Virus record (IMG/VR): IMGVR_UViG_3300050821_002462
Location: 1 to 34,880 of that record
DNA length: 34,880 nt
From: a virus
Strand: one strand, 5' to 3'
The position numbers and the translations under genes were made by a program. The first letter of the stretch is position 1. Every line of letters starts with the position of its first letter. Shown piece after piece: positions 2,135 through 34,092 of the stretch. Below the pieces are notes generated by a model that saw only the letters and a list, made by a program, of their open reading frames with translations, made no database searches and was not told the origin of the DNA.

Positions 2135-3430
2135 TTATTGTCCGGCCGGCGCGGCGACAGCGCCGACTTGGCGCGCATCTCGAAGTGAATTGATAAACTT
2201 ATCGTAAGCGGGATTAGGTTTATCGGGCGTGGACTTCGGACCAAGGCCCTTCATGACCGAGGCGCGTTCTTGCGGCGTCAGTAGGTCGAAATTGAAAGCT
2301 TTCTCGTCATAGTTATTATAGAAACTAGACTTAAAGCCCAAATAGTTGTTCTTATACCCATCTTCCGGATGCTGCATCGCATATATCTGCGGCATGGCGA
2401 TGTCCATGCGGTCGAGCGCGATCTGGTTCTTGGTCTGTCCAAGGATACCCGGTTTCGACGCCATCGTGTTCGGGGACGAGACGAGCGATTGATGCAATCC
2501 CTCGTCGGATCGTCCAGCACTACGAGACATGCCGCTATAACGGTTCAAGAGCTTGTTGACCTCATCGCTCGCTTGCGCATCGGTTGCGTCTGGCGCAATA
2601 ATTCCCGCCTGAATCAGGCCGTTGCGGATCTTGCTATAATTGGCGGTCTGCGGCCCGAAATTCTCTCCGCCCATTTGTTCGATCATTGGGAGGGCCATCG
2701 TCAGCGAACGCATGTTGCCCGCCATGGTGGAGGATGTCTGCTGATCGGCTTGGAATGCCTGCATTCCGGGGCCGAGTCCCTGTGGAGTAAAGCCGCCGCC
2801 CTGGCCCTGAACTGCCTGCGCCTTCGGGACGACTCCAGACTGACCACCGGGCGTCGTCGTCGGAACCATTTCCGCTCCCGTAGCGGGGCCGGCGGCCGAA
2901 ATGCCAAGCTGGGCCAAATAGGCCCGTTGGGCGTCCTGTCCCGCTGAATCCGGCGGGAAGCCCGCGGCGACGCTCTGCCATACATTCGCGGGGATGTTTG
3001 GATTGCGTACTGCTGAACGCGCTATCGCGCCGAGGAATGCGGTTTGATTGAGGTTCTTTTGCCCCTGCAACGCCGCTAGATCACCCAGCGCAACCTGACC
3101 GGCCGCCGCGCCCTGCTGAATCAGGGCGGTTCCCTGCTGGATATTCTGGCCGCGCATCGCGGTCGCGTCTTGCGTGTATTGCGAGCCGGCGATCCCAGGA
3201 ACGCTGCCAGCGTTTGCGAGAGCCTTGTTGTAATCGAACCCGCTCGGGCCCATCGAACCCGTCAGCGCCCTTCCCGCCGCGCCCTGCGCGTTGAAAAGCT
3301 GTTGCGCCCGCTGGTTCTGTTGCAACTCGATCATCAGCGGGATCATCTGCAACGGATTGCCGCCCAGCGCGGATTGCGGCGGTTGCGGATAAAGCCCCTG
3401 AATCGGATTGCCTCTGGCGCCTAAGCCCAT
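2135..3430 (-). CDS. Internal virion / DNA-injection protein candidate
   Basis: 431 residues, starting at ATG 3430 and ending 3 nt before the giant protein gene. The N-terminal two thirds is Gln/Ala/Gly-rich and helical (QQNQRAQQLFNAQG at the front), and the C-terminal part is more ordered and aromatic (about 360-400). No catalytic motif is visible. Position between tail genes and the transglycosylase protein matches the P22 ejection-protein block (gp7, gp20, gp16). I do not recognise a named family; the structural role is inferred from context and composition. Confidence 0.7.
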   Translation of the reverse strand: MGLGARGNPIQGLYPQPPQSALGGNPLQMIPLMIELQQNQRAQQLFNAQGAAGRALTGSMGPSGFDYNKALANAGSVPGIAGSQYTQDATAMRGQNIQQGTALIQQGAAAGQVALGDLAALQGQKNLNQTAFLGAIARSAVRNPNIPANVWQSVAAGFPPDSAGQDAQRAYLAQLGISAAGPATGAEMVPTTTPGGQSGVVPKAQAVQGQGGGFTPQGLGPGMQAFQADQQTSSTMAGNMRSLTMALPMIEQMGGENFGPQTANYSKIRNGLIQAGIIAPDATDAQASDEVNKLLNRYSGMSRSAGRSDEGLHQSLVSSPNTMASKPGILGQTKNQIALDRMDIAMPQIYAMQHPEDGYKNNYLGFKSSFYNNYDEKAFNFDLLTPQERASVMKGLGPKSTPDKPNPAYDKFINSLRDARQVGAVAAPAGQ

Positions 3431-3570
3431 TGCGGTAACATCTTTCTCTTGCTATCTGGAGCCTGCGCAGCGGCGTGGAAGGACACGCAAGGATGTCGCA
3501 CGATTTCATCAGTCTGGTTGACCGTGCCAACTGCCAGACAGCCGGTTTCGAGTCCGGCCTGCGCGTTCAT
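3421..3570 (-). CDS. Small hypothetical protein (49 aa)
   Basis: Short frame from ATG 3570 (MNAQAGLETGCLAVG) to TAG 3421. Its start overlaps the stop of the upstream gene as ATGA and its end overlaps the next gene by 10 nt, filling what would otherwise be a 136-nt gap. The coupling pattern, repeated at many junctions here, is the main evidence. No domain recognised. Confidence 0.55.
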   Translation of the reverse strand: MNAQAGLETGCLAVGTVNQTDEIVRHPCVSFHAAAQAPDSKRKMLPQWA

Positions 3571-4139
3571 TTAGCCCCCTGTTGATACTGAGAAATCAGC
3601 CCTTGCATGATCTGGCTATGATTCTCTGGGTCATAGTCTCCCTGCGGTGTCCCTGGCTGGGGCGGGGCCATCTGGTGATGGGCGAGGACCGCCGTCGCCG
3701 CTTGGTCGGAGCGCGTCATGTAGGCTTCCAGCCACTTTTTCTGTTCGAACGGCCGATCGGGAAAGCTCGCCAACTCCCTCACGGCGTCCGCGGGCGTAGC
3801 AATGCCTTCGCTGACCAATTTCGTCACGCCGTCAATCACCTTGGATCGAACGTCGGTTTTGCCGCAGTCTGGATCAGCGAGGAGAGACGCGCATTCGCTG
3901 GAGATAGCGCCAAAGTGGCGGAGCGCGGCGACGGTCTGCTGGTGAGAAGGGGGAGGAGGCGGTGCGGCCGGACCCGCGCCTCCTGCTCCACCCATTCCGG
4001 ATTGCGGCGAGCCCTGGCCTGTCGGCATGGGAGATCCACCCATCGATGGGCCGAGAAAGCCCTGCGTCAGTGCGGGACCACCCGGCTGTGGATTGGGCGC
4101 CGGGGGAGCGCCGCCGAGCGCGGAAAGAGCATTTGCCAA
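3567..4139 (-). CDS. Virion-associated hypothetical protein, Pro/Gly-rich N-terminus
   Basis: 190 residues from a TTG start at 4139, preceded by GGGGGGATTTAAGA, a Shine-Dalgarno-like run, with the upstream stop only 2 nt away. Residues 10-65 are Pro/Gly-rich and disordered; 70-150 look helical (QQTVAALRHFGAISSEC onward). An ATG at 4132 exists but is in another frame. It sits in the injection-protein block; small proteins of this kind accompany ejection proteins in podoviruses, but I cannot name the family. Confidence 0.65.
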   Translation of the reverse strand: MANALSALGGAPPAPNPQPGGPALTQGFLGPSMGGSPMPTGQGSPQSGMGGAGGAGPAAPPPPPSHQQTVAALRHFGAISSECASLLADPDCGKTDVRSKVIDGVTKLVSEGIATPADAVRELASFPDRPFEQKKWLEAYMTRSDQAATAVLAHHQMAPPQPGTPQGDYDPENHSQIMQGLISQYQQGAK

Positions 4140-4141
4140 TC

Positions 4142-4819
4142 TTAAATCCCCCCGGCGGCGGCAAGCTGTTGGTCGGTTATGTTGCCAAAGATCCCGGAAT
4201 TGTTGGCGCTGTTGCTCCCCAGAACGGAGTTGAGGAGATAGGCGTTACCAAGACCAGATACCCCGCCCGCGAGGGCGTTGGTCGTCCCCAATGTCCCTGA
4301 TGCGAGCGCATTACCGCCCGCAGTGGCTGACTGGCCTATGCCCTGCCCGACCGCAGTCGAATTACCGGCGAGAGCGGCAGCCGCCCCCGTCCCCATGTTG
4401 GCGAAATTCTGCGCGCCTTGCACATAGTTGCCGTAATATGTCCCTGCGAGGCCGTTATTATAGTCAGAAACCGCCTTAGCCAGAGGCCCCGTAGATCCCC
4501 CCAAGCCTTCAGCGGCGAGCGTGTTTTGAGCCTGCTTTGTTCCCCATTGGCTCTGAAACTGGAATCCGGGGAGCTGCGACAATGTTGATGCGGCTGTCCC
4601 AGGCGTTAACAGGGACTGGAGAGTGGGAAGGACGCCTTGGCCAGCCGTGTAGTATGGCGAGAGCGCCCCCTGCGCCTGCCCGAACATCGCGAGTTGAGCC
4701 TGAATGGCCTGTTGCGTGCCCTGCTGCTGCTGCTTCGCCGCTGACTGGGCTCCGAGAGCCTGAATCCCGGCGCCCGCCAGGGATGTCGCGCCAAGGACGC
4801 CCGCCGCTCCAAGTCCCAT
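4142..4819 (-). CDS. Internal virion / DNA-transfer-like protein, Ala/Gly-rich
   Basis: 225 residues, ATG 4819, with GAGG about 9 nt upstream. An N-terminal small-residue hydrophobic stretch (GAAGVLGATSLAGAGIQALG), a helical Gln-rich segment (about 28-55) and a long Ala/Gly/Asn C-terminal region suggest a protein that inserts in or crosses the envelope, like the ejection proteins of P22-type phages. It follows the sulfotransferase gene with the stop 1 nt from the start. Family assignment is by composition only. Confidence 0.65.
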   Translation of the reverse strand: MGLGAAGVLGATSLAGAGIQALGAQSAAKQQQQGTQQAIQAQLAMFGQAQGALSPYYTAGQGVLPTLQSLLTPGTAASTLSQLPGFQFQSQWGTKQAQNTLAAEGLGGSTGPLAKAVSDYNNGLAGTYYGNYVQGAQNFANMGTGAAAALAGNSTAVGQGIGQSATAGGNALASGTLGTTNALAGGVSGLGNAYLLNSVLGSNSANNSGIFGNITDQQLAAAGGI

Positions 4820-15956: not shown

Positions 15957-17669
15957 TCAGTAACCTCCACCACCACCGCTGGAGTCGAACGATCCGCCGG
16001 ACATATCCATGCTCCCGCCACCGCTGAAGTCGAAGGCGCCGGATGTATCCGTGCCGAGATCCGTCACGCCGCCGCTGCCAAAATCGGGGCCATAGCTCGG
16101 GGCATAGCCTCCGATATTCGAATAATCTGAGGTATTGATGCCGAGATCGTTGCCGTAGGTATAGACAGGTACGCCGTATCCACTCACTCCAGCGTCTGCT
16201 CCGTAGTAATAGCCAGGATCAGGAACGGACCCTCCGCCGTAGCCTCCGGTGGGTATCCCTGCTTGGTCAAGCAACTGAGATGTATAATCGCTGTTCGTGT
16301 TGAACCCCATATTGCCCAGGAGGGCATCGGACATGGTGGATGCGCCCGCGGCCGGATACCCATAGCCATTTGCCCCCGATTGAAGGATCGGAAACCCAGC
16401 CGAAGACAGATTAGCCGCCATCTGGCCAAAAGGAACGCGCCCATACGCGGTTCCAAACGGATCAGCCGCTTCCTGCGCGAAATTACCAAGCGTATATTGC
16501 GGCGGGACAAATCCGGGAGCCGGCGTGTAACCTAGTCTATTGGAGAAAACATTATTTGTTGCCGCAGTGCCGCCGCCCAGGGGGGCGCCCCCGGATGCCG
16601 CCATTCGCGCACCATCGGGAGACGTTTGCGCGAGAAAGTATAAAGCGTTACCAAGCTGGCCCATATTGCCTAGAGTCCCATTTTGCAGGGCTTGAGCAAT
16701 TTCCTGTGCGCTGGCGCCGACTTGCGATTGCGGGACTATGCGCCCAGGACCGCTAGGGGAATTCAGGTGGCCGGCAAATTGCCCCGGCGCATTCGCCTGC
16801 CCAAGAAGATCGCCATACTGGGCAAACGTAGGATTGGCAGCACGATTGGCGAGAACCGCCGCAACGGCGAACTGCCCAGCCTGACTATCTCCTGCCTCAC
16901 TCTGAATAACCTGAGCAAGCGTGTATGGGTTTGAGAAACCTCCCCCAAGATTTCCCATCATCTCGCCGGCGTTCTGGCTTGGCAGATCGGCCGGATTCAC
17001 CTGCTGTTGTTGCTGCTGCTGCCCAAACGCCTGCGCCTGCGCCGGAGACAGCCCCATAGACTCAGCCATTGCAAGTGACTGAGGCGATATCGAGCCACCA
17101 GAATCAAACGAACCTGAAAGCGCGCTAGACTGCGGCGCCTGGCCTGCGTTGAACGGAGTGCTCGAGCCTCCGCCTCCGCCGCTAAACAGTGCGCCTCCGT
17201 CGAGGAATCCCCCGCCACTACCATATGGAGAGCCGCCGCCGACCGAGCCCGGCGAGGATGGCGCTCCAAACCCGCCGGAGAGAGCCGAACCGCCGCCGAA
17301 GGCCGAGGAGCCTCCGCCAGGGAATGATCCGCCGCCGCCCTGGCCTAAAACCGTCAGCGTGCCATAGCCGGAAGACGACGGAATATAACTCTGCGGCGAG
17401 CCATAGTTAGGCGAAGATTGAGGGAATGGCGAACTTCCGGGTAGGCCAGTCCCCGCATTTGCCCCGCTTCCCCACGCAGGCGGGACAAAAGTCTCATTTC
17501 CCCATGCCGACTGAATAGGAGTGCTAAAGCCGCCCCCAAACTGATTAGGAGAACCCCCCATCTGGTTCGGGAAGCTGCCCCCGTTCCCCGCGCCGCCAAA
17601 GCCGCCCGAGCCAAATATCGACGAACCGTACCAGCCATTTGCGGGGCCGGCTGTAACTACCTGGGGCAT
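15957..17669 (-). CDS. Gly/Ser-rich virion protein with central SleB-like cell wall hydrolase domain
   Basis: 570 residues, ATG 17669. Residues 1-245 and about 400-570 are low-complexity Gly/Ser/Tyr sequence (FGSGGFGGAGNGGSF; ending DSSGGGGGY). Between them, from residue 247, NPYTLAQVIQSEAGDSQAGQ and FAVAAVLANRAANP match the opening of the Hydrolase_2/SleB fold, with candidate catalytic Glu259 and a following LLGQANAPGQF. SleB-type enzymes cleave peptidoglycan. Located between portal and scaffold, it may be a virion-borne hydrolase with flexible arms; an internal-core or adhesion role is also possible. Confidence 0.7.
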   Translation of the reverse strand: MPQVVTAGPANGWYGSSIFGSGGFGGAGNGGSFPNQMGGSPNQFGGGFSTPIQSAWGNETFVPPAWGSGANAGTGLPGSSPFPQSSPNYGSPQSYIPSSSGYGTLTVLGQGGGGSFPGGGSSAFGGGSALSGGFGAPSSPGSVGGGSPYGSGGGFLDGGALFSGGGGGSSTPFNAGQAPQSSALSGSFDSGGSISPQSLAMAESMGLSPAQAQAFGQQQQQQQVNPADLPSQNAGEMMGNLGGGFSNPYTLAQVIQSEAGDSQAGQFAVAAVLANRAANPTFAQYGDLLGQANAPGQFAGHLNSPSGPGRIVPQSQVGASAQEIAQALQNGTLGNMGQLGNALYFLAQTSPDGARMAASGGAPLGGGTAATNNVFSNRLGYTPAPGFVPPQYTLGNFAQEAADPFGTAYGRVPFGQMAANLSSAGFPILQSGANGYGYPAAGASTMSDALLGNMGFNTNSDYTSQLLDQAGIPTGGYGGGSVPDPGYYYGADAGVSGYGVPVYTYGNDLGINTSDYSNIGGYAPSYGPDFGSGGVTDLGTDTSGAFDFSGGGSMDMSGGSFDSSGGGGGY

Positions 17670-20983: not shown

Positions 20984-22434
20984 CCGGTTCCGAGCGACTT
21001 GGGAGAACGATCCCCGATCGTTGGAATCTTGCCGGTCTGGGCTTTCATCTGGTCCCTCGGGTGCCTGTACCCAGAGGCAAAAGTTCGCGCCGCATCGGCC
21101 CCGTGGCTCGCCCAATCGTGTTTTGGAGCATCACGGAACATCTTGAGTTTATCGTCCCATTCCCGATGGTAGGAAGACAGCGCGTCTATGCCGCGCTCGC
21201 AGCGTTTTTCGTCGATATATGCGGCGTCCAAAATACGCCTGAAAGCGTTTATCCCGTCGTTTACGTTCCCGCTTTCGACAACCTTGGGCGTTACGCCAAG
21301 GCGGCGCATCGTATTGACTCGGTTCCCGTCAGGGTTCCCAAGCTGCTGATGCGCTAAGTCATGCGGGAAATAGTGCGTCCCGTAGATCCAGCGATGCTCT
21401 TTTCTCTTGTCCTCGAGCACCTGCGCATAAAACGCTAAATCGGTCGGGCCGGCCGCCTCATAGTAATCTACGAATCGGTACTCTCGTCCAGCAACCTGAA
21501 TAAACCAAATGCCAGTAGAGTCGGAAGCGCCAAGATCCCAGCTAGTATGCACCAGATTGCCGCGGTCGATAGGAACAGAGCAAATGCGCCCTTCGCTGCG
21601 CATTCTCGTAATGGCCGCGCCATAGTACGAACCGAGAAGCGCCGCTTCGAATGAGCAGAAATACTCCTGATCGAAGAACGAGCGGCCTTCGTCGGCTCCA
21701 TATTCATGCTGCATCTCGCGCAATTCAGAGGCTAGTTCATCCTCCGAAAAGACTCCCGTCTGCTTCGCAGTCAGGACTTCCGCGAACCAACTTGGCTCGC
21801 TACGCGCAAGGGTCAGCGTTTTCTTGGCGTGGTTGTTTCCGCGGGGAGTGGTAATGAAGAGAGCCCATCCTCCATTCTCAGCAAGGATTGGCCGGAGAAA
21901 GGCCCACGCATTAGGGTCAGCAATAGCCCATTCGGATAGGACGATTCCCCTTGGAGCCGCGCCCACGAGGCTGTCGTAATTGTCTGATCCGACAACTCGC
22001 CATAGACTTCCGCCTGTGAGGCGGATCGCCATTTCCTGCTCGCGGGTTGATTCCCTAAACTCTTTCGGAAATGCTTGGTCAATCCGGCGCAATCCTGTGT
22101 GGCTATTGACCGCATCCCAGATCACCTTGCGGCCCTGAGAGGCCTCCGGCAGCATATGCCAGTATTCGCCCGTCTGGGCGATCGCCTGTTCGGCCGTCCA
22201 GTTCAGCGCCAAGTCGTCCTTGCCGCTGCGCCGATGCCAGATCGCGCAGGCCCGCTTGCCGCCACCTTGCAGATAGTCCCACAGGGGTTGCTGATAGGGT
22301 CTTGGCGTCCAGTTGCGGAGCTCCCGGAGCCGAGTCAGCTTGCGCTGAAGCAGCAACTCCGGGAGTAAGAGCGCATCAAGTTGTTCGGGGGAGGGGACGA
22401 ACTCGATGAGGCGCTCTATTTCTAATGCGTTCAC
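20968..22434 (-). CDS. Terminase large subunit (TerL)
   Basis: 488 residues, GTG 22434 (GTGA overlap with the upstream small gene). ATPase: Walker-A-like HRRSGKD (67-73), Walker B GIVLSEWA with Glu168, coupling motif TTPRG (196-198 region). Nuclease: SWDLGASDS with Asp300 and C-terminal SHGADAART with Asp447, the RNaseH-like metal site. TerL packages DNA through the portal and cuts the concatemer. It leads the classical head gene order. Confidence 0.9.
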   Translation of the reverse strand: MNALEIERLIEFVPSPEQLDALLLPELLLQRKLTRLRELRNWTPRPYQQPLWDYLQGGGKRACAIWHRRSGKDDLALNWTAEQAIAQTGEYWHMLPEASQGRKVIWDAVNSHTGLRRIDQAFPKEFRESTREQEMAIRLTGGSLWRVVGSDNYDSLVGAAPRGIVLSEWAIADPNAWAFLRPILAENGGWALFITTPRGNNHAKKTLTLARSEPSWFAEVLTAKQTGVFSEDELASELREMQHEYGADEGRSFFDQEYFCSFEAALLGSYYGAAITRMRSEGRICSVPIDRGNLVHTSWDLGASDSTGIWFIQVAGREYRFVDYYEAAGPTDLAFYAQVLEDKRKEHRWIYGTHYFPHDLAHQQLGNPDGNRVNTMRRLGVTPKVVESGNVNDGINAFRRILDAAYIDEKRCERGIDALSSYHREWDDKLKMFRDAPKHDWASHGADAARTFASGYRHPRDQMKAQTGKIPTIGDRSPKSLGTGWMRH

Positions 22435-24492: not shown

Positions 24493-24693
24493 TCACTCAG
24501 GGTTCACGCTCACCACCTGTCGGAGTACCCACTCTCCGGCCGGATGAGACGCTGTCCAGCGAGCGTAGCGGCAAACTGAAAAAGGGGGCGGCCCTGGTTT
24601 CCACTCGGGAAAGAACTTCCACGCCTGATAAATTCTTCCGGCGGGCGTCCGCACGAACCAATGCCCCCTGTAGTAAAACAGCCTGAGATTCAT
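24493..24693 (-). CDS. Small aromatic-rich hypothetical protein (66 aa)
   Basis: ATG 24693 directly follows the upstream TGA. Trp/Tyr/Arg-rich (RLFYYRGHWFVRTPAGRIYQ; AWKFFPEWKPGPPPF), which favours this frame over the alternative four bases away. Second gene of the late operon. Role unknown. Confidence 0.6.
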   Translation of the reverse strand: MNLRLFYYRGHWFVRTPAGRIYQAWKFFPEWKPGPPPFSVCRYARWTASHPAGEWVLRQVVSVNPE

Positions 24694-24864
24694 TCACGCG
24701 CCCTTGGGCTTGGTGAGCACGAACCAGAAAGTGTCATTTGGGCGCTGCCGGTGCAGCTCCGCGAGCACATGCTGCTCGACGAAATTAGATGGCGGGGTTG
24801 TCTCGAAGCATCGGATCTCGTGGGTTCCGGCTAGCATTGCGCAGAACGTGATCAGGGGCATCAT
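24694..24864 (-). CDS. Small hypothetical protein (56 aa), first gene of late leftward operon
   Basis: ATG 24864 after AGAGGGAGATG, a good ribosome site. Product opens MMPLITFCAMLAGTHEIRCF and ends FWFVLTKPKGA. It heads the leftward late transcript, just across from the rightward promoter. A leftward TTGACT (24916-24921) exists upstream but no good -10, so late promoter is not assigned. Confidence 0.6.
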   Translation of the reverse strand: MMPLITFCAMLAGTHEIRCFETTPPSNFVEQHVLAELHRQRPNDTFWFVLTKPKGA

Positions 24865-24924
24865 GGCTGCATCTCCCTCTTAGATGCACTCTTTGTTGCA
24901 CACTTTTCTCAGGGAAGTCAAGAA

Positions 24925-24977
24925 AAATAGTGCAAATAGTGCTTGACACGATCCATAAACAGTGCGATAAACAGTGC
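24925..24977 (+). repeat. Four direct copies of AAAYAGTGC
   Basis: AAATAGTGC at 24925-24933 and 24934-24942 in tandem, AAACAGTGC at 24957-24965 and 24969-24977. The last two overlap the spacer and -10 of the rightward promoter. Probably operator sites for an unknown regulator acting on the divergent region. Confidence 0.7.
24943..24971 (+). promoter_or_regulatory. Sigma70-type promoter of rightward island
   Basis: TTGACA (24943-24948), 17-nt spacer, GATAAA (24966-24971). It precedes the 52-aa gene at 24997 and lies within the AAAYAGTGC repeats. Confidence 0.7.
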
Positions 24978-24996
24978 ATAAGAACAGAGCAAGCAG

Positions 24997-25155
24997 ATGT
25001 CTCTCATGATCAACTCCCCCCGTATCCGCTGCCACAAGGCAACTGACGGAACTTGGACCGCCACGCTCTATATTGAAGGCCGCTGGCATGCTCAGATGCA
25101 CGGATTCGCGTCACAGTCGCAGGCCCGCAATGCTATCCAAGCGCGATATCTATGA
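24997..25155 (+). CDS. Small hypothetical protein (52 aa)
   Basis: ATG 24997 after the leader GAGCAAGCAG; stop TGA overlaps the next ATG (ATGA at 25152). The sequence CHKATDGTWTATLYIEGRWH followed by SQSQARNAIQARYL looks like a compact beta-beta-alpha fold. First gene of the rightward island. Function unknown. Confidence 0.65.
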   Translation: MSLMINSPRIRCHKATDGTWTATLYIEGRWHAQMHGFASQSQARNAIQARYL

Positions 25156-25583
25156 TCAAGGTCGAGGACATCGAGGCGGCCCGCGAATTTGGGCCCCCGA
25201 CTTGGTACGCCTATCTGGTCGTCCACCCCGTGACGAAAGTTCCGCTTTATGCGGGGATCACGGCAAGCATCACGGGACGTAGCGCGCAGCACATCGCACC
25301 TAGCAGTCCCGTCCGCGCTATCTTGGGTGATCTAATACCAGAGATCGTTGTGGTAGGGCGGTACGAGACCAAGGACGAGGCAATAGACCACGAAATCAGG
25401 CTAATCAACGAAACACCCAATTTGCTCAATCAAATCAGCAGTCGCGCCACAGGAAGGCCGAGGCTGGGCGAGGAACACAAGACGATCGAAGCTAACCGAC
25501 CGTGGGAAGAGCAAGGAATCTCTCGCCGCACTTGGTATGCAAGGCGCAGGAAAGAGAAGAAAGTTCATGAGCAGAGCGAATAG
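25152..25583 (+). CDS. GIY-YIG-like nuclease candidate
   Basis: 143 residues. YAY (19-21) and YAG (33-35) in WYAYLVVHPVTKVPLYAGIT match the two GIY-YIG half motifs; Arg43, Glu81 (EAIDHEIRL) and Asn93 are at fitting distances for the family's catalytic core. The C-terminal stretch PWEEQGISRRTWYARRRK resembles a DNA-binding helix-turn-helix. Coupled to the upstream gene by ATGA. Could be a homing-type or host-DNA nuclease. The half motifs are degenerate, so a catalytically inactive relative is possible. Confidence 0.55.
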   Translation: MIKVEDIEAAREFGPPTWYAYLVVHPVTKVPLYAGITASITGRSAQHIAPSSPVRAILGDLIPEIVVVGRYETKDEAIDHEIRLINETPNLLNQISSRATGRPRLGEEHKTIEANRPWEEQGISRRTWYARRRKEKKVHEQSE

Positions 25584-25586
25584 GTG

Positions 25587-25615
25587 TTGACGCGGCGGAT
25601 AAACAGTGCAATAAA
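25587..25615 (+). promoter_or_regulatory. Second island promoter, copy of the first
   Basis: TTGACG (25587-25592), 17-nt spacer, AATAAA (25610-25615). The segment 25599-25643 matches 24955-24999 at 42 of 45 positions, including the leader and ATG. Confidence 0.7.
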
Positions 25616-25643
25616 CAGTGCATCAGAACGGAGCAAGCAGATG
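25599..25643 (+). repeat. Duplicated promoter-leader (second copy; first at 24955-24999)
   Basis: 45-nt direct repeat, three mismatches, ending at the start codon in both copies. It carries two AAACAGTGC elements (25601-25609, 25613-25621) around the -10 box. Sequence diverges immediately inside the genes, so the leader, not the gene, was duplicated or conserved. Confidence 0.8.
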
Positions 25644-25841
25644 ACCACTTACGTTGAAGACTGCGCAGGCAAAAAGGCTGATTACCGCGTCTATTACCGA
25701 AAAAACGGCAAGCTGAAAGTGTTCTTTGACGCCATGTTTGCCTCCTCACCCGAAGAGGCAAAAGCCTTGATGCTTGGTTTTGCCAAAGAGCTTCGCATGA
25801 AGGTCGAGATCATTGGCGTTAAGGCAGAAGCAAGCAGATGA
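25641..25841 (+). CDS. Small hypothetical protein (66 aa)
   Basis: ATG 25641, immediately after the duplicated leader; an upstream in-frame ATG at 25584 would lie before the promoter and is rejected. Product reads TTYVEDCAGKKADYRVYYRK then FASSPEEAKALMLGFAKEL. Ends in an ATGA overlap. Unknown function. Confidence 0.65.
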   Translation: MTTYVEDCAGKKADYRVYYRKNGKLKVFFDAMFASSPEEAKALMLGFAKELRMKVEIIGVKAEASR

Positions 25842-26002
25842 CCATCCAACGCCTTCGCCTAGCAGACACATTCAAGCGCACCTCCCCGTTCGCGTGGCTG
25901 GCCTTCCAAGCCGTTCGCCCGCTGGTTGAGGGCTATGCTTATCGCCTCATCCAGTTGGAAGAGATGAGCAAGGCAGTCGACGCTGGCGTAGTTTTCGGCT
26001 GA
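25838..26002 (+). CDS. Small hypothetical protein (54 aa)
   Basis: ATG 25838, preceded by AAGCAAGCAG as in the duplicated leader, in an ATGA overlap. Sequence RLADTFKRTSPFAWLAFQAV then VEGYAYRLIQLEEM. Helical. Unknown function. Confidence 0.6.
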   Translation: MTIQRLRLADTFKRTSPFAWLAFQAVRPLVEGYAYRLIQLEEMSKAVDAGVVFG

Positions 26003-26015
26003 AGGAACAAGGGAA

Positions 26016-26219
26016 ATGACGGACGAGCAATTTGAAACTATCATGACCTTGCTGAAACAGATCGAACGGCGTCTATGGGCGCAGGAAGCGCGTGCCAACG
26101 GACTCGTCCCCGCGACCCAAGAATTCGCATCTCATATGCAGCTCGCGGCAAGGGTTGAGCTAGGCATCTCACGCCGCTTACAGCTAGCGGCACAGAAAGA
26201 GAAGGAGCAAGGGAAATGA
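26016..26219 (+). CDS. Small helical hypothetical protein (67 aa)
   Basis: ATG 26016 after AACAAGGGAA. Amphipathic helices (EQFETIMTLLKQIERRLWAQ; RRLQLAAQKEKEQGK) suggest a coiled coil. The same leader block GAxCAAGGGAAATGAC precedes the next gene. Unknown function. Confidence 0.6.
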   Translation: MTDEQFETIMTLLKQIERRLWAQEARANGLVPATQEFASHMQLAARVELGISRRLQLAAQKEKEQGK

Positions 26220-26419
26220 CTGATTTCTTTGAGAAGGTGAAAAAGCTCAACCAAGATCCGGCTTACATCCGCGACACATTGGATCGGCTGGAGAAAGCTA
26301 ATAAAGCCAAGGAGGCGCGCAAGGCGCAATTCAAGCTCGGACCCCCAGTGATAATTAAGAGCGGCCCCGTGCGAATGGTCCCGCCGCAATATCGCAAGGG
26401 AGGTTCGCACAGCAGATAA
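26216..26419 (+). CDS. Small charged hypothetical protein (67 aa), last gene of island
   Basis: ATG 26216, ATGA overlap, preceded by GAGCAAGGGAA. Lys-rich N-terminal helix (DFFEKVKKLNQDPAYIRDTL) and a Pro/Gly C-terminus. Only 12 nt separate its stop from the stop of the convergent early gene; GGGTT-CT-AACCC (26427-26438) there could be a weak terminator. Confidence 0.6.
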   Translation: MTDFFEKVKKLNQDPAYIRDTLDRLEKANKAKEARKAQFKLGPPVIIKSGPVRMVPPQYRKGGSHSR

Positions 26420-26431
26420 ATAGCGGGGGTT

Positions 26432-26803
26432 CTAACCCTTCGCCTTAGCCAGCAGCGCTCTAACCGCTGCGGCCCGTTCGGCATCGGTAAACGTAATCCG
26501 GTGCTCGATCGGTTGCTCCGGATCTCCTGCGACGATCTGAGGAGCCTTGCCCCAGCCTCGATCTAGAATGGCCTGAGCCGCGCCAACTCGGGCTGCCGCC
26601 GGCTTTGAACTATCCTTTACGATTGATTTCAGGGCGTTTATTGCATCTGCGGTACATTCCTTTGCCGCAGCTTTAACGTCCTGAATTGCCTGTTTGGCAA
26701 TTACCGTTGCCAGTTCATTTGCCGGTTTCTTCGGGCGTCCATTTGGGTTTGGGCTCTTCTGTCCTGGCTTGAAGGATGTTGAGCGCTTACCGCCGCGAGG
26801 CAT
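26432..26803 (-). CDS. Small terminase candidate / DUF5681-like protein (123 aa)
   Basis: ATG 26803 (MPRGGKRSTSFKPGQKSPNP), with NGRPKK next, a typical opening of a phage family often annotated near terminases. Then a helical core ending AAARVGAAQAILDRGWGKAP and a C-terminal helix. The start overlaps the upstream gene by 17 nt. It closes the early operon, separated from TerL by the rightward island. TerS is my inference; a general DNA-binding role is equally possible. Confidence 0.55.
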   Translation of the reverse strand: MPRGGKRSTSFKPGQKSPNPNGRPKKPANELATVIAKQAIQDVKAAAKECTADAINALKSIVKDSSKPAAARVGAAQAILDRGWGKAPQIVAGDPEQPIEHRITFTDAERAAAVRALLAKAKG

Positions 26804-26975
26804 CGGAAATCCGCCATATAGGCCACAATCGGGCCAACTCAGAGAGGCAAACGCTCTCCATGAAGCAACCTTGATAGCTGGCAATCCATCGGCCGCGTTC
26901 GTAATGGATGTGAGGCCGCGTAAGCCTCGGTCCATGGCCGGCGCCGAGCCCGCTTGCGTAGAGGAGAGGCTTCAT
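26787..26975 (-). CDS. Small hypothetical protein (62 aa)
   Basis: ATG 26975 in an ATGA overlap. RPHIHYERGRWIASYQGCFM then SELARLWPIWR look protein-like and rich in Trp and Arg. Tightly packed between neighbours. Unknown function. Confidence 0.55.
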   Translation of the reverse strand: MKPLLYASGLGAGHGPRLTRPHIHYERGRWIASYQGCFMESVCLSELARLWPIWRISDASRR

Positions 26976-27426: not shown

Positions 27427-27617
27427 CGAGGTTCCAGCAGAGATTTGTGGAGCATGGCGAGCCAATTTCCCTCGGCACCAAGATCCTCGCCTACATCTGA
27501 CCACATCTCCGGAGTCACCGTCTTAAGCGTGCGGAGGACTTCGGCAAGGATGGCGCGAACGTCACTTTCATCACCATAGGCGCAGCACTCCGCCACCAAT
27601 TCCTCATACGCGCTCAT
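27423..27617 (-). CDS. Small acidic hypothetical protein (64 aa)
   Basis: ATG 27617 in an ATGA overlap with the NusG-like gene. Helical and acidic (MSAYEELVAECCAYGDESDV then AILAEVLRTLKTV). Its coupling to the NusG-like gene suggests joint expression. Unknown function. Confidence 0.65.
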   Translation of the reverse strand: MSAYEELVAECCAYGDESDVRAILAEVLRTLKTVTPEMWSDVGEDLGAEGNWLAMLHKSLLEPR

Positions 27618-28309
27618 GCTAACTCCAATGCGCTTGGCTTCAGGGTTGTGGATGTCCGGCGCCCAAATAGATCCAAGTCAACCCGGATACCGGCCTTCGA
27701 GAACGCCTCGACTAGGCCTTGGAACCCAGTAAGGGGCCCATCGCCGATTCGGACCGCGTCGCCTATTTTGAATGTTCGCGCCCACGCTGGGATCTTCGTT
27801 TCGTCCCATTTGCCGTCGATTTCTGCCTCGTTGATGGCGCGGACCGCCCGTTGATCAAGCGCCCAAGGGCCAGCCGAATCGCCGATGATCTCGCTGATTC
27901 CGTCATGCACCCATGCGGAGAGAGGCTCCTCGACCTCACCGACGAACAGATACCGGCCGAACACCGCGGTTTGATGTATTCTCTTCCGGCGCCCTACCCG
28001 TGCGCGCGCCTGATAGACCGTCTTCCGGCCGAGTGGGCAATAGGCCACGAACCCGAGCTCGTTCAGGTCGAGCGCCACGCCTCGAGCCATCTGCGGTCGG
28101 CAGACTGCGACCACCCAGCGGCGGACCTCATCCATCGGAAGGGCTCTAGGCGCCACAAGGACGGGGGCAGGAAGCTCATGAATGCCTGTCTGGCGGCTAC
28201 CTATGCCGGATATGGATCTTTGCGCCCTGGCGGCCCGCGCTAGCGATCCTGGGTCCATTCCAAGGGCGCGCGCCCGCTTGCGGAGCACCTCGAGTTCAAT
28301 CTTGCCCAT
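27614..28309 (-). CDS. NusG/RfaH-like transcription antitermination protein
   Basis: 231 residues from ATG 28309 (MGKIELEVLRKRARALGMD), preceded by GGGAGAAG and overlapping the upstream gene by 14 nt; an earlier in-frame ATG is at 28366. A helical N-terminal extension (1-58) precedes a NusG N-terminal-like domain (62-160: RRWVVAVCRPQMARGVALDL, AVFGRYLFVG) and a KOW-like C-terminal domain (180-229: FKIGDAVRIGDGPLTGFQG). NusG paralogs bind RNA polymerase and suppress termination, so this may extend early or switch on late transcription. Confidence 0.8.
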   Translation of the reverse strand: MGKIELEVLRKRARALGMDPGSLARAARAQRSISGIGSRQTGIHELPAPVLVAPRALPMDEVRRWVVAVCRPQMARGVALDLNELGFVAYCPLGRKTVYQARARVGRRKRIHQTAVFGRYLFVGEVEEPLSAWVHDGISEIIGDSAGPWALDQRAVRAINEAEIDGKWDETKIPAWARTFKIGDAVRIGDGPLTGFQGLVEAFSKAGIRVDLDLFGRRTSTTLKPSALELA

Positions 28310-28532
28310 TGGACTTCTCCCTCTCGGCAAGTATCGCGTCGGCAGCTTCGTAAGCTTTTTTCGCAAGAAACTCGGCGCTAGATGGAGATCTGGAGGCCGG
28401 AAGTCCGATTAGGCCGCATAGCGCCTGCCCAGCGAACCAGTCGCGGATCGTCATGCCTTCGTGGGCAACCTCACCCATGCTGCCGTGCGACGGGAACGCA
28501 GGCCCTCCATCATCAAGCTCAGTCTTGCCCAT
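28296..28532 (-). CDS. Conserved-type small phage protein (78 aa)
   Basis: ATG 28532 (MGKTELDDGGPAFPSHGS). The motif GGPAFP, then GMTIRDWFAGQALCGLI and KKAYEAADAILAEREK, is a frequently seen short phage protein of unknown function. Overlaps both neighbours by 14 nt. Confidence 0.75.
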   Translation of the reverse strand: MGKTELDDGGPAFPSHGSMGEVAHEGMTIRDWFAGQALCGLIGLPASRSPSSAEFLAKKAYEAADAILAEREKSNGQD

Positions 28533-28848
28533 GATCGTCTTCCTTCGGCGCGAGGATGGATTTCAATTCGGGTGAGATCGTTAGCGGCGTGGCTCCGTAT
28601 TCGGCCATCGTCTCCCCGATCGGGCGAAAGTCTGGCCTTCGCTTGGCCCGCAGCGGCTCCAGACCTTTGGCCAACTCAGAGAACAGCCTGGCAACGCGGA
28701 ACCGCATCAGAGGATCTATACGAGGACTGCGCCTGTCCTCCTCTTCTCTCTCTCGACGGTCCTTGAACCTCTGCGACAGGATGATTTGCTCATCGGTGAG
28801 CGCCGCCGACGTATTGCTGGATTGGGGGGATTGCTTTTCGAATTTCAT
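28519..28848 (-). CDS. Hypothetical protein of replication region (109 aa)
   Basis: ATG 28848, overlapping the replication gene by 59 nt. Charged helical N-terminus (TDEQIILSQRFKDRREREEE), then a Leu/Arg middle (RFRVARLFSELAKGLEPLRA). Its position after the replication protein suggests a helicase-loader-type partner, but no motif supports that. Confidence 0.6.
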   Translation of the reverse strand: MKFEKQSPQSSNTSAALTDEQIILSQRFKDRREREEEDRRSPRIDPLMRFRVARLFSELAKGLEPLRAKRRPDFRPIGETMAEYGATPLTISPELKSILAPKEDDHGQD

Positions 28849-29608
28849 CGTAGTTGCCCTCGAGGATCTTCAGCGCGTTTGTGGGATTGTTGATCCAGTC
28901 GAACGTGCATGGCGATCGGCCCTTGTCGCCGCGCAGGAAGGGACTTCCCCTTATTTTGGCGAAGATGCGTTCGTAGTTCTGAGCTTCGCGAATGCGCGCG
29001 AGAGCGGAAACCTCTCGTGGGCTCCCGGCCTTGATTTCCTCGATCTGGGGCAGGCCAAGCTCGCCAGCTAGGGCGTTCCATTGCTGGCCAAGCTCTCGTA
29101 ATCGAGAACGAGCATTGCCTAGCTTCGCCTTCTCGATCTCGATCTTCAAATTGATGGCTGGCGGCTTGCCGTCAGCAAGAGATGCGTCAGCATCTCTAAT
29201 GGTACTGGTACTAGGTACTAGATCAGGCGCGAGGGTTCGCGAGGGTTCGCGAGGGTTCGCGATGGTTTCTGATTTATCCGGAGGATGAGGAAGCTTTGAC
29301 TTAGAAGGATGGTCTATTTTCTGGTGTTTGCAGAAATTTATCACCTGTAGGTAGGCGCTTCCTTCTACCGTATACCTCTGGATGCAATGTTCTCGTTCAA
29401 GCTCAGTAAGCCATCCTTCGATAAGGCTCGGTGCATCATCGTCGAAGGGGAAAAGAAGGCTCGCGAGCATTCGCGAGGATGCGCGAGACCTACCTTCGTC
29501 GTCGACTTGGGTCCACAATTGGATGAACAAAAGGCGTGCATCCCGGGACACTCGCCCCATGCTCTCGGACTGCTGGAACTCGGGCTTGATGGTGCGAATG
29601 CGGCTCAT
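28790..29608 (-). CDS. Replication initiation-like protein (lambda O analogue candidate)
   Basis: 272 residues from ATG 29608 because MSRIRTIKPEFQQSES is the characteristic opening of a family of phage replisome organisers; an earlier in-frame start at 29662 lacks this. N-terminal winged-helix-like domain about 1-100 (ARLLFIQLWTQVDDEGRSRA, LEREHCIQRYTVEGSAYLQV). A linker at about 100-140, encoded by tandem DNA repeats, leads to a C-terminal domain (EIEKAKLGNARSRLRELGQQ; FDWINNPTNALKILEG). It probably binds the origin and recruits helicase. Architecture, with iterons in the linker, parallels lambda O. Confidence 0.75.
   Translation of the reverse strand: MSRIRTIKPEFQQSESMGRVSRDARLLFIQLWTQVDDEGRSRASSRMLASLLFPFDDDAPSLIEGWLTELEREHCIQRYTVEGSAYLQVINFCKHQKIDHPSKSKLPHPPDKSETIANPREPSRTLAPDLVPSTSTIRDADASLADGKPPAINLKIEIEKAKLGNARSRLRELGQQWNALAGELGLPQIEEIKAGSPREVSALARIREAQNYERIFAKIRGSPFLRGDKGRSPCTFDWINNPTNALKILEGNYDEIRKAIPPIQQYVGGAHR
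29178..29345 (-). other. Candidate replication origin inside the replication gene
   Basis: Clustered elements: perfect inverted repeat AGAGATGC-GTCA-GCATCTCT (29178-29197); three GGTACT units (29201-29206, 29207-29212, 29214-29219); three exact tandem decamers GCGAGGGTTC (29229-29258) plus a fourth, GCGATGGTTT (29259-29268); then an AT-richer tract (about 29290-29345). They encode the linker (about residues 114-127). The combination resembles lambda ori. Confidence 0.6.
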
Positions 29609-29651
29609 GCGGAGCCAACGTAAGGATGGGCGGCATAAGCGATCCTCACGA

Positions 29652-29852
29652 CTATCCCTCAATCTCAGCGATAAATTCCTTCGGCAGGCGCGATCGCCAC
29701 GACTGCAAAAGCATTAGAGTCAGTGTCGCGGCTTTCAGCCCAGGCTCCAGATGCTCCCACTCCTTGGGCTTCATACTTGGATTGCCGCGGCGCATGGCAT
29801 GGACAGCGGCGACATCGACGGCTGACGTCTGTGCATGAAGGGAGGCTTTCAT
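29652..29852 (-). CDS. Small hypothetical protein (66 aa)
   Basis: ATG 29852 in an ATGA overlap with the C5 methyltransferase. Helical with MKASLHAQTSAVDVAAVHAM and EPGLKAATLTLMLLQSW. No recognised motif. 43 nt separate it from the chosen replication start. Confidence 0.6.
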   Translation of the reverse strand: MKASLHAQTSAVDVAAVHAMRRGNPSMKPKEWEHLEPGLKAATLTLMLLQSWRSRLPKEFIAEIEG

Positions 29853-33025: not shown

Positions 33026-33053
33026 TTGACAACATAGCGATATTCGCTATTCT
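33026..33053 (+). promoter_or_regulatory. Rightward promoter with embedded operator, antisense to the Cro-like gene
   Basis: TTGACA (33026-33031), 16-nt spacer, TATTCT (33048-33053). The palindrome TAGCG-ATATT-CGCTA (33035-33049) fills the spacer and shares TA with the -10. It points through the Cro-like gene in antisense toward the repressor-like gene at 33381, as lambda pRE does. Confidence 0.7.
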
Positions 33054-33071: not shown

Positions 33072-33314
33072 TTATTGATCCACGCCAATATCTTGTGATT
33101 CGGACGGAAGAAGGTCTTCAGCGCTGATGGGAACGCCCAATTGTTCCGCCGCTCGCAGGATGGTTCGATGCAGCGATTGAGGAATCTGGCCGCCGGTGCC
33201 GCCTACGCTTCTCGGGCGTTTCCAGTTCGAGACTCGGGTGGGGTGGCGACTGACAATCTCGGCAACCTTGGATGTGCCGCCCAATTTTTTAACGATCGAC
33301 GAAGCAGGTTCCAT
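33072..33314 (-). CDS. Cro-like helix-turn-helix regulator (80 aa)
   Basis: ATG 33314. Helix-turn-helix core LGGTSKVAEIVSRHPTRVSN with recognition helix ending NWKRP, followed by GGQIPQSLHRTILRAAEQLG. It is transcribed leftward as the first early gene. The promoter's -10 ends only 9 nt before ATG, so the mRNA should be nearly leaderless. Likely binds the TAGCG-N5-CGCTA sites, competing with the repressor across the intergenic space. Confidence 0.75.
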   Translation of the reverse strand: MEPASSIVKKLGGTSKVAEIVSRHPTRVSNWKRPRSVGGTGGQIPQSLHRTILRAAEQLGVPISAEDLLPSESQDIGVDQ

Positions 33315-33322
33315 AGCGATAT

Positions 33323-33351
33323 TGTCTAGCGACCAGCGCTAGGTTTGTCAA
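33323..33351 (-). promoter_or_regulatory. Leftward early promoter (pR-like) with embedded operator
   Basis: TTGACA (33346-33351 on the minus strand), 17-nt spacer, TAGACA (33323-33328). Operator TAGCG-ACCAG-CGCTA lies at 33327-33341 (plus strand), overlapping the -10. A second imperfect site (33314-33328; 7 of 10 arm bases) overlaps the start codon. Confidence 0.7.
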
Positions 33352-33380: not shown

Positions 33381-33854
33381 ATGAAAAGGTATGTGCTATC
33401 TTCACCCATGTTTGCCGGGTGGGTGAGAGCGGCAATCGCTAAGTTCGGCACCCAGGCCGAACTCAGTCGGCGCTTGTCCGCATTGCTAAAGCGAGAGATT
33501 CATGCTGCGGCGGTCAACAAGCTCGCCAGCGGGAAACGCGCGCTGGCCGCCGACGAAATGCTCGCCATCGCGCAAATTGCTGATTATCCGGTGCTTATTT
33601 CATTAACGGGGGACACATTGGACAAAAGCAACGGTCAGAGATCCACCTTCAACGAAGATCACCTGATCAGATTATTTTCCTATGCTCTACAATGGAGAGG
33701 ACTTGATGCTGGGGCCGCTCGAAACCTAGCTGCATCTCTATTAGAAGCCGCCCGCAATCATCCTGATCGGACAGATTCTGTGCTAAGTGATGACCAACTA
33801 GAGACGGTTGCTCGCGCCTTAGTAGCTGCACTCGGGTCTCAACGGCAGCAATAA
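33381..33854 (+). CDS. CI-like repressor candidate without peptidase domain (157 aa)
   Basis: ATG 33381; a later in-frame ATG is at 33408 and neither has a strong ribosome site. The helix-turn-helix region is FGTQAELSRRLSALLKREIH then AAAVNKLASGKRALAADEML. The C-terminal half is helical (LSDDQLETVARALVAALG) and has no S24/LexA-type autoprotease motif, so direct RecA-triggered cleavage is unlikely. Divergent from the Cro-like gene, it completes a lambda-style switch. Confidence 0.7.
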   Translation: MKRYVLSSPMFAGWVRAAIAKFGTQAELSRRLSALLKREIHAAAVNKLASGKRALAADEMLAIAQIADYPVLISLTGDTLDKSNGQRSTFNEDHLIRLFSYALQWRGLDAGAARNLAASLLEAARNHPDRTDSVLSDDQLETVARALVAALGSQRQQ

Positions 33855-34064: not shown

Positions 34065-34092
34065 TTGACAAGCTAGCGAATAACGCTATGGT
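34065..34092 (+). promoter_or_regulatory. Rightward early promoter with embedded operator
   Basis: TTGACA (34065-34070), 16-nt spacer, TATGGT (34087-34092). Operator TAGCG-AATAA-CGCTA (34074-34088) occupies the same place as in the 33026 promoter. Confidence 0.75.

Follow-up and report, generated by a model that had tools for sequence, protein, structure and literature searches.

The window analysed here is a complete virus record from IMG/VR, 34,880 bases long, and it encodes a tailed phage whose portal, large terminase and major head genes all lie on the minus strand. Placed between the small-terminase-like and large-terminase genes is a group of plus-strand ORFs (24997-26419), which opposes the flanking minus-strand genes at 24392-23748 and 26935-26432. 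Judged from its sequence, this is an opposite-strand, moron-like island. Its genes, promoter-like blocks and repeats are collected in Table 1.

Table 1. Genes, promoter-like blocks and repeats at the opposite-strand island (window coordinates)
Feature	Position	Strand	Remarks
56-aa ORF behind block C	24694..24864	minus	no family found
Diverged tandem pair AAAGTGTGC AAC AAAGAGTGC, period 12	24906-24883	minus	in block C
Promoter-like block C: TTGACT (24921-24916), 18 nt, AACAAA (24897-24892)	24892..24921	minus	firing leftward (putative)
Tandem pair AAATAGTGC AAATAGTGC, period 9	24925..24942	+	flanked by the -35 boxes of blocks C and A
Promoter-like block A: TTGACA (24943-24948), 17 nt, GATAAA (24966-24971)	24943..24971	+	TGC before -10
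45-nt promoter-leader, first copy	24955..24999	+	ends in ATG of o1
Tandem pair AAACAGTGC, period 12	24957-24965, 24969-24977	+	over spacer and -10 of block A
o1, 52-aa protein	24997..25155	+	kept in three other phage contigs; predicted beta-beta-beta-alpha
GIY-YIG nuclease-like domain with C-terminal GRPR...RPWEEQGISRRTWYARRRK helix-turn-helix-like tail	25152..25583	+	candidate autorepressor
Promoter-like block B: TTGACG (25587-25592), 17 nt, AATAAA (25610-25615)	25587..25615	+	TGC before -10
45-nt promoter-leader, second copy	25599..25643	+	ends in ATG of o3
Tandem pair AAACAGTGC, period 12	25601-25609, 25613-25621	+	over spacer and -10 of block B
o3, 66-aa ORF	25641..25841	+	no significant family match
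o4-o6, small ORFs (54, 67, 67 aa)	25838..26419	+	no significant family match; island end
Small-terminase-like ORF	26432-26935	minus	DUF5681, PHROG small-terminase match; convergent, 12 nt from o6 end

The word AAAYAGTGC has eight exact matches in the window, both strands counted, against 0.21 expected, and the largest number in any of 100 dinucleotide shuffles is one. Six of the eight are island copies, all on the plus strand (24925, 24934, 24957, 24969, 25601 and 25613), four of them within 24925-24977 and two within 25601-25621, exactly where the original prediction had put them. Within the window, clustering of the word is restricted to the opposite-strand island, and Tandem Repeats Finder, run over the whole window, returned four arrays in 24877-25622 (24877-24906, 24925-24942, 24954-24981 and 25599-25622). 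The remaining two exact matches are single copies within leftward late ORFs (17184-17192 and 21368-21376), and are perhaps due to chance.

The first and second promoter-like blocks, A and B, have the -35 and -10 boxes with 17-nt spacers that had been described around the repeats (TTGACA-17-GATAAA and TTGACG-17-AATAAA). The 45-nt block ending at an ATG is likewise real, with three differing positions between its copies, and it forms part of a longer similarity of 71 nt at 82% identity (24929-24999 and 25573-25643) which ends at the starts of o1 (24997) and o3 (25641). These two genes are unrelated, as had been proposed: they have no similarity to each other, and the idea that they are paralogues was rejected as no alignment was obtained. 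The 3' end of the duplicated leader, AGCAAGCAGATGACCA, recurs exactly at 25829-25844 ahead of o4, as a re-used ribosome-binding site.

The repeats had also been described as lying always in the same orientation. This does not hold: the minus strand has a diverged pair in block C (24906-24883). It is identical to 25601-25624 at 20 of 24 positions, whereas the best match among 20,000 shuffles of the 59-bp stretch holding it was 17 of 24, with none reaching 18. Each of the three blocks has two copies of the word, 12 nt apart, over its -10 region, those in block C being diverged. The -10 of block C, AACAAA, is a poor one, matching TATAAT at three of six positions, and its spacer is 18 nt. It had been suggested that the first repeats, lying between divergent transcripts, might also control the late operon; this is made more plausible by block C, a minus-strand copy of the promoter block directed into the leftward genes.

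When the TTGAC sites of the window are ordered by tandem periodicity, blocks B, A and C take ranks 1, 2 and 3, with scores of 12, 11 and 9. A simple promoter scan of the window found no promoter excess and missed all three, A and B because the scan accepts only -10 hexamers ending in T. No RNA families were matched in the region and the RNA folds of the leaders are not special. At the end of the island, a hairpin at 26405-26460 is no better than shuffles, and a clear terminator was not found.

The tandem pair, with up to two mismatches allowed, had 29 matches in 26 of 385 alphaproteobacterial genomes, compared with about 39 for a reversed-pattern control, and is thus at chance level across these genomes. 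The tandem word ATAAACAGTGCNATAAACAGTGC had no matches in viral contigs, and a search of 24600-26400 against phage records found no DNA similarity. Seven stretches of viral contigs matched AAAYAGTGCN3AAAYAGTGC, but were judged from their flanking sequence to be chance occurrences. The proposal of a dedicated regulon is supported by these results, since the arrangement looks phage-specific and the word clusters only at the island.

The protein encoded by 25152-25583 matches the GIY-YIG profile PF01541 with an E-value of 7.2e-4 and 20.2 bits, under the curated cut-off of 22.6. Its predicted model (pLDDT 68) was compared by Foldseek, where the first 13 matches listed are all GIY-YIG proteins, and by VIA, where the first 14 listed are, among them the catalytic domain of I-TevI (Z 7.2 over 76 residues). 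Both profile and fold indicate a GIY-YIG domain in this protein. The tail is helix-turn-helix (HTH)-like by sequence, and the model has helices at residues 117-120 and 125-142, without a fold match for the tail. It resembles, we assume, the DNA-binding domain of Hin, with a GRPR arm and HTH, and would then fit an AAA tract beside a G+C-containing core. No relatives of the whole protein were found in viral contigs, plasmids or phages, and in 297 genomes the tail alone was matched; its motif, RPW..G.SRRTWY, is present in 11 of the 297, in unrelated proteins of other mobile elements.

The model of o1 has a pLDDT of 86; the structures that it matches are of several kinds, dsRNA-binding-like ones among them, and all score weakly (Z at most 5.7). 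An integrase-arm (AP2-like) domain was also considered for o1, but no such fold is among the matches listed. A search with the o1 relative of contig L192 as query found none in phages, and none was found in plasmids; weak, partial matches in three of the 385 genomes were left out of the counts. For o3, the single match (L195) covers 28 residues in a different context and was left out of the comparison, and there are no clear relatives.

Relatives of o1 were found in three of 13 candidate stretches in viral contigs: L192 (62% identity), L193 (62%) and L194 (55%). All three belong to islands that run against the structural or terminase genes beside them. Ahead of o1, L192 carries TTGACG with GATACATTC GATACATTA GCTACATCG, and L193 has TTGACA with GATACATCT GCTACATTA GCTACATCA; each array consists of three tandem 9-mers (GMTACATY), the middle copy of which gives the hexamer at 17 nt. 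The L192 repeat pair occurs only at its island in the 18.9 kb contig. L194 fits the pattern only in part, because the array in its divergent control region (AAAAACCATT, 3.8 copies, period 10) lacks a TTGAC box and lies at least 177 nt ahead of the first island gene. Also in L194, a G+C-rich leader block, CACGCGGGGCCTCCGGGCCTCGCTCCCCATTTCA, is repeated before two adjacent genes (about 3951-3990 and 4215-4255), the second of which is the o1 relative. The known o1 islands number four, amounting to about three independent cases because L192 and L193 are closely related.

Closer relatives of the phage differ at the place of the island. In L114 and L115, with 77 and 84% identity to the window in the major head protein, there is no island, as all plausible genes between TerS and the homologue of g23748 run one way; the absence rests on these two relatives. 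L020, a prophage of a Beijerinckiaceae MAG that is close by TerL and head protein (81%), has at the same place a different opposite-strand insert without o1. This stands behind TTGACT AATCGTGCC AAATTGTGTC AAATCGTGTC, three 10-nt repeats (AATYGTGYC), and the repeat pair is found only at the insert in the 3.8 Mb genome. The layout of an opposite-strand island with tandem repeats in its control region thus recurs in other phages. An ORF of L020 also has the RPW..G.SRRTWY tail; it overlaps another plausible ORF, and the sharing may mean little because the tail is widespread.

In blocks A and B, as in L192, L193 and L020, a hexamer with a 4/6 match to TATAAT stands exactly 17 nt from the -35 box, within the array; in random stretches, 5% hold a match of at least 4/6 at any of three spacings. 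The tandem arrays score 11 (A), 12 (B), 11 (L020), 10 (L192) and 9 (L193), and such scores occur upstream of 0.7-3.3% of 3,734 ORFs in the loci compared, where only 35 upstream regions score at least 11, 61 at least 10 and 123 at least 9. A wider scan for TTGAC with tandem repeats gave eight sites of at least 11 in the window plus L003-L100, with none in one shuffle of each, and five sites of at least 10 in 79 further loci; these sites include the two of the window and that of L020, and several others look like coding repeats.

The islands also differ in the candidate DNA-binding proteins that they encode, one in each o1 island and of three kinds in all. Those of L192 and L193 encode a ribbon-helix-helix (RHH) protein matching PHROG 4738, 'transcriptional repressor', at E 5e-10, for which there is no Pfam match, and that of L194 encodes an HTH protein matching PHROG 2328, also 'transcriptional repressor', at E 0.001. 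No RHH match was obtained among the island proteins of the window. Across the o1 islands, word and candidate DNA-binding protein change together while o1 is kept, a pattern that favours the variable protein over o1 as the one that reads the word. The regulator, which the original prediction had called unknown, need not be wholly so, since a candidate is present in the island and in each of its relatives.

It is suggested that an island-specific repressor uses the AAAYAGTGC copies as its operator units, arranged in tandem and head to tail. The operators would overlie the -10 of the rightward promoters A and B and, in diverged form, that of the leftward promoter C, and one more pair stands between the divergent -35 boxes. 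Bound repressor would block RNA polymerase, keeping expression of the island (24997-26419) and its divergent neighbour low. The GIY-YIG and HTH protein is the best candidate for this repressor, and may be an autorepressor in the manner of I-TevI of phage T4. We infer promoter activity, binding, repression and the identity of the binding protein from the DNA and its relatives, and give this reading as a whole a probability of roughly 45%. Its parts differ in strength. The repeats probably act as operators, while it is slightly less than an even bet that the repressor is encoded within the island, and its identification with the GIY-YIG-HTH protein specifically is tentative. Comparison of the islands favours a repressor encoded in them over a separate regulator, whether of the whole phage or of the host.

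Elsewhere in the window are two further sets of repeated elements. TAGCGA-N3-TCGCTA-like palindromes at 33035-33049, 33314-33341 and 34074-34088 lie around an HTH-like gene (33381-33854) and a Cro-like gene (33072-33314), and appear to be a separate, immunity-type operator set. At 29228-29267, inside the replication-initiation gene (28790-29662), CGCGAGGGTT is repeated four times head to tail; these iteron-like repeats mark a candidate origin.

Several other readings of the repeats must be weighed against an island-encoded repressor. It is doubtful, though a serious possibility, that an activator or repressor from elsewhere in the phage, or a host factor, reads AAAYAGTGC. The window does encode such proteins in the HTH-like (judged by eye) and Cro-like products just mentioned, and two distant single copies of the word exist; however, the immunity region bears different, palindromic elements with no exact copy of AAANAGTGC, and the chance-level occurrence of the tandem pair in the alphaproteobacterial genomes speaks against a regulator encoded elsewhere or by the host. 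A regulator nearer at hand would be o1, or o3, autoregulating through the repeats as a beta-beta-beta-alpha DNA binder. As the first gene behind block A and the conserved gene of the islands, with a model at pLDDT 86, o1 has some claim to this role, but it is unlikely to fill it: the repeat words differ between the window and L192/L193 despite the 62% identity of o1, its structural matches are weak and mixed, and o3 is without clear relatives or family.

Alternatively, there may be no regulator, the tandem look being incidental to a recently duplicated strong promoter-leader with a -35 box, an extended -10 (TGnRATAAA) and a ribosome site. The similarity of blocks A and B extends into the ribosome-binding site, as copying would leave it, and the word provides the TGn of the extended -10. 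Mere leader duplication is nevertheless improbable, given that block C, on the minus strand, retains the pair but little of the rest, that the pair at 24925-24942 lies outside any -10, and that other phages have arrays of different words at the same place. Iterons and integrase arm sites typically consist of 9-12 nt repeats set head to tail, and the form of the arrays would fit sites of a replication or recombination protein. This is very improbable, as the arrays follow promoter boxes, iteron-like repeats of another word sit in the replication gene, and an integrase was not seen among the window proteins scanned, which are part of the full set.

A search of the literature on such islands, repeats and GIY-YIG autoregulation, mostly outside subscription journals, gave no description of this arrangement. 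Several known systems nevertheless resemble it in one respect or another. I-TevI represses its own promoter, and likewise joins a GIY-YIG nuclease to a separate DNA-binding part whose site overlaps that promoter, so that polymerase is occluded; its gene, however, lies in an intron, and its operator is similar to its homing site (PMC2988022). The window protein is a free-standing ORF and only a putative repressor, with tandem 9-mers at three promoter blocks, and the sites overlie the -10 of block A, upstream of its gene. Omega/parS of plasmid pSM19035 has short, non-palindromic tandem repeats over promoters and a small repressor from the same unit, and is closest to L192 and L193 with their RHH protein; its repeats are heptads in 7-10 copies which also serve as a partition site (PMC9499535). 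In the window island, no RHH protein was recognised and no partition ATPase noticed.

The pid moron of P22 is similarly a small late-region locus set against its neighbours, where relatives have nothing or another insert, but it is a single 86-aa gene, and the available text makes no mention of a repeat array or a repressor of its own (PMC3573128). The operators and stoperators of Cluster A mycobacteriophages are asymmetric sites for one phage repressor, also present at a promoter; they are spread genome-wide and stop elongation, whereas the window sites are tandem and island-confined save for two single copies (PMC9283540). Cluster K start-associated sequences are repeated leader elements just before the starts of unrelated phage genes, but precede many genes, and the extended ones have 17-bp inverted repeats in place of tandem direct repeats over the -10 (PMC3203893).

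As we read it, the island would be an opposite-strand moron under tandem-repeat autorepression, each kind being known by itself. A broader and more speculative proposal, which we hold to be doubtful, is that these are exchangeable control cassettes of phage late regions: the blueprint (-35, 17 nt, 9-12 nt head-to-tail repeats over the -10) would stay with islands of the o1 type, while the fold of the repressor (GIY-YIG nuclease-HTH, RHH or other HTH) is swapped together with the operator word, and here a nuclease repressor would silence two further promoters, one aimed at late genes. If true, the islands would form a compact natural series in which unrelated repressors, each with its matching DNA word, work from one promoter plan. 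Such a series could show how a repressor and its operator come to be exchanged together, and the window would provide an example outside T4 of a nuclease that serves as a repressor. The islands would also offer a starting point for work on a family of 52-aa phage proteins (o1) undescribed in the libraries searched here.

Three minor observations concern other genes. L020 encodes, away from its island (3372-3548), a 53-aa RHH protein that is 40% identical over 45 residues to the RHH protein of the L192 island. In the window, 27614-28366 on the minus strand encodes a NusG-like protein with a match to PHROG 6386 (transcription antiterminator, E 1.3e-18), and a small ORF at 34434-34649 matches ribosome modulation factor below the threshold (Pfam RMF, E 0.0038).
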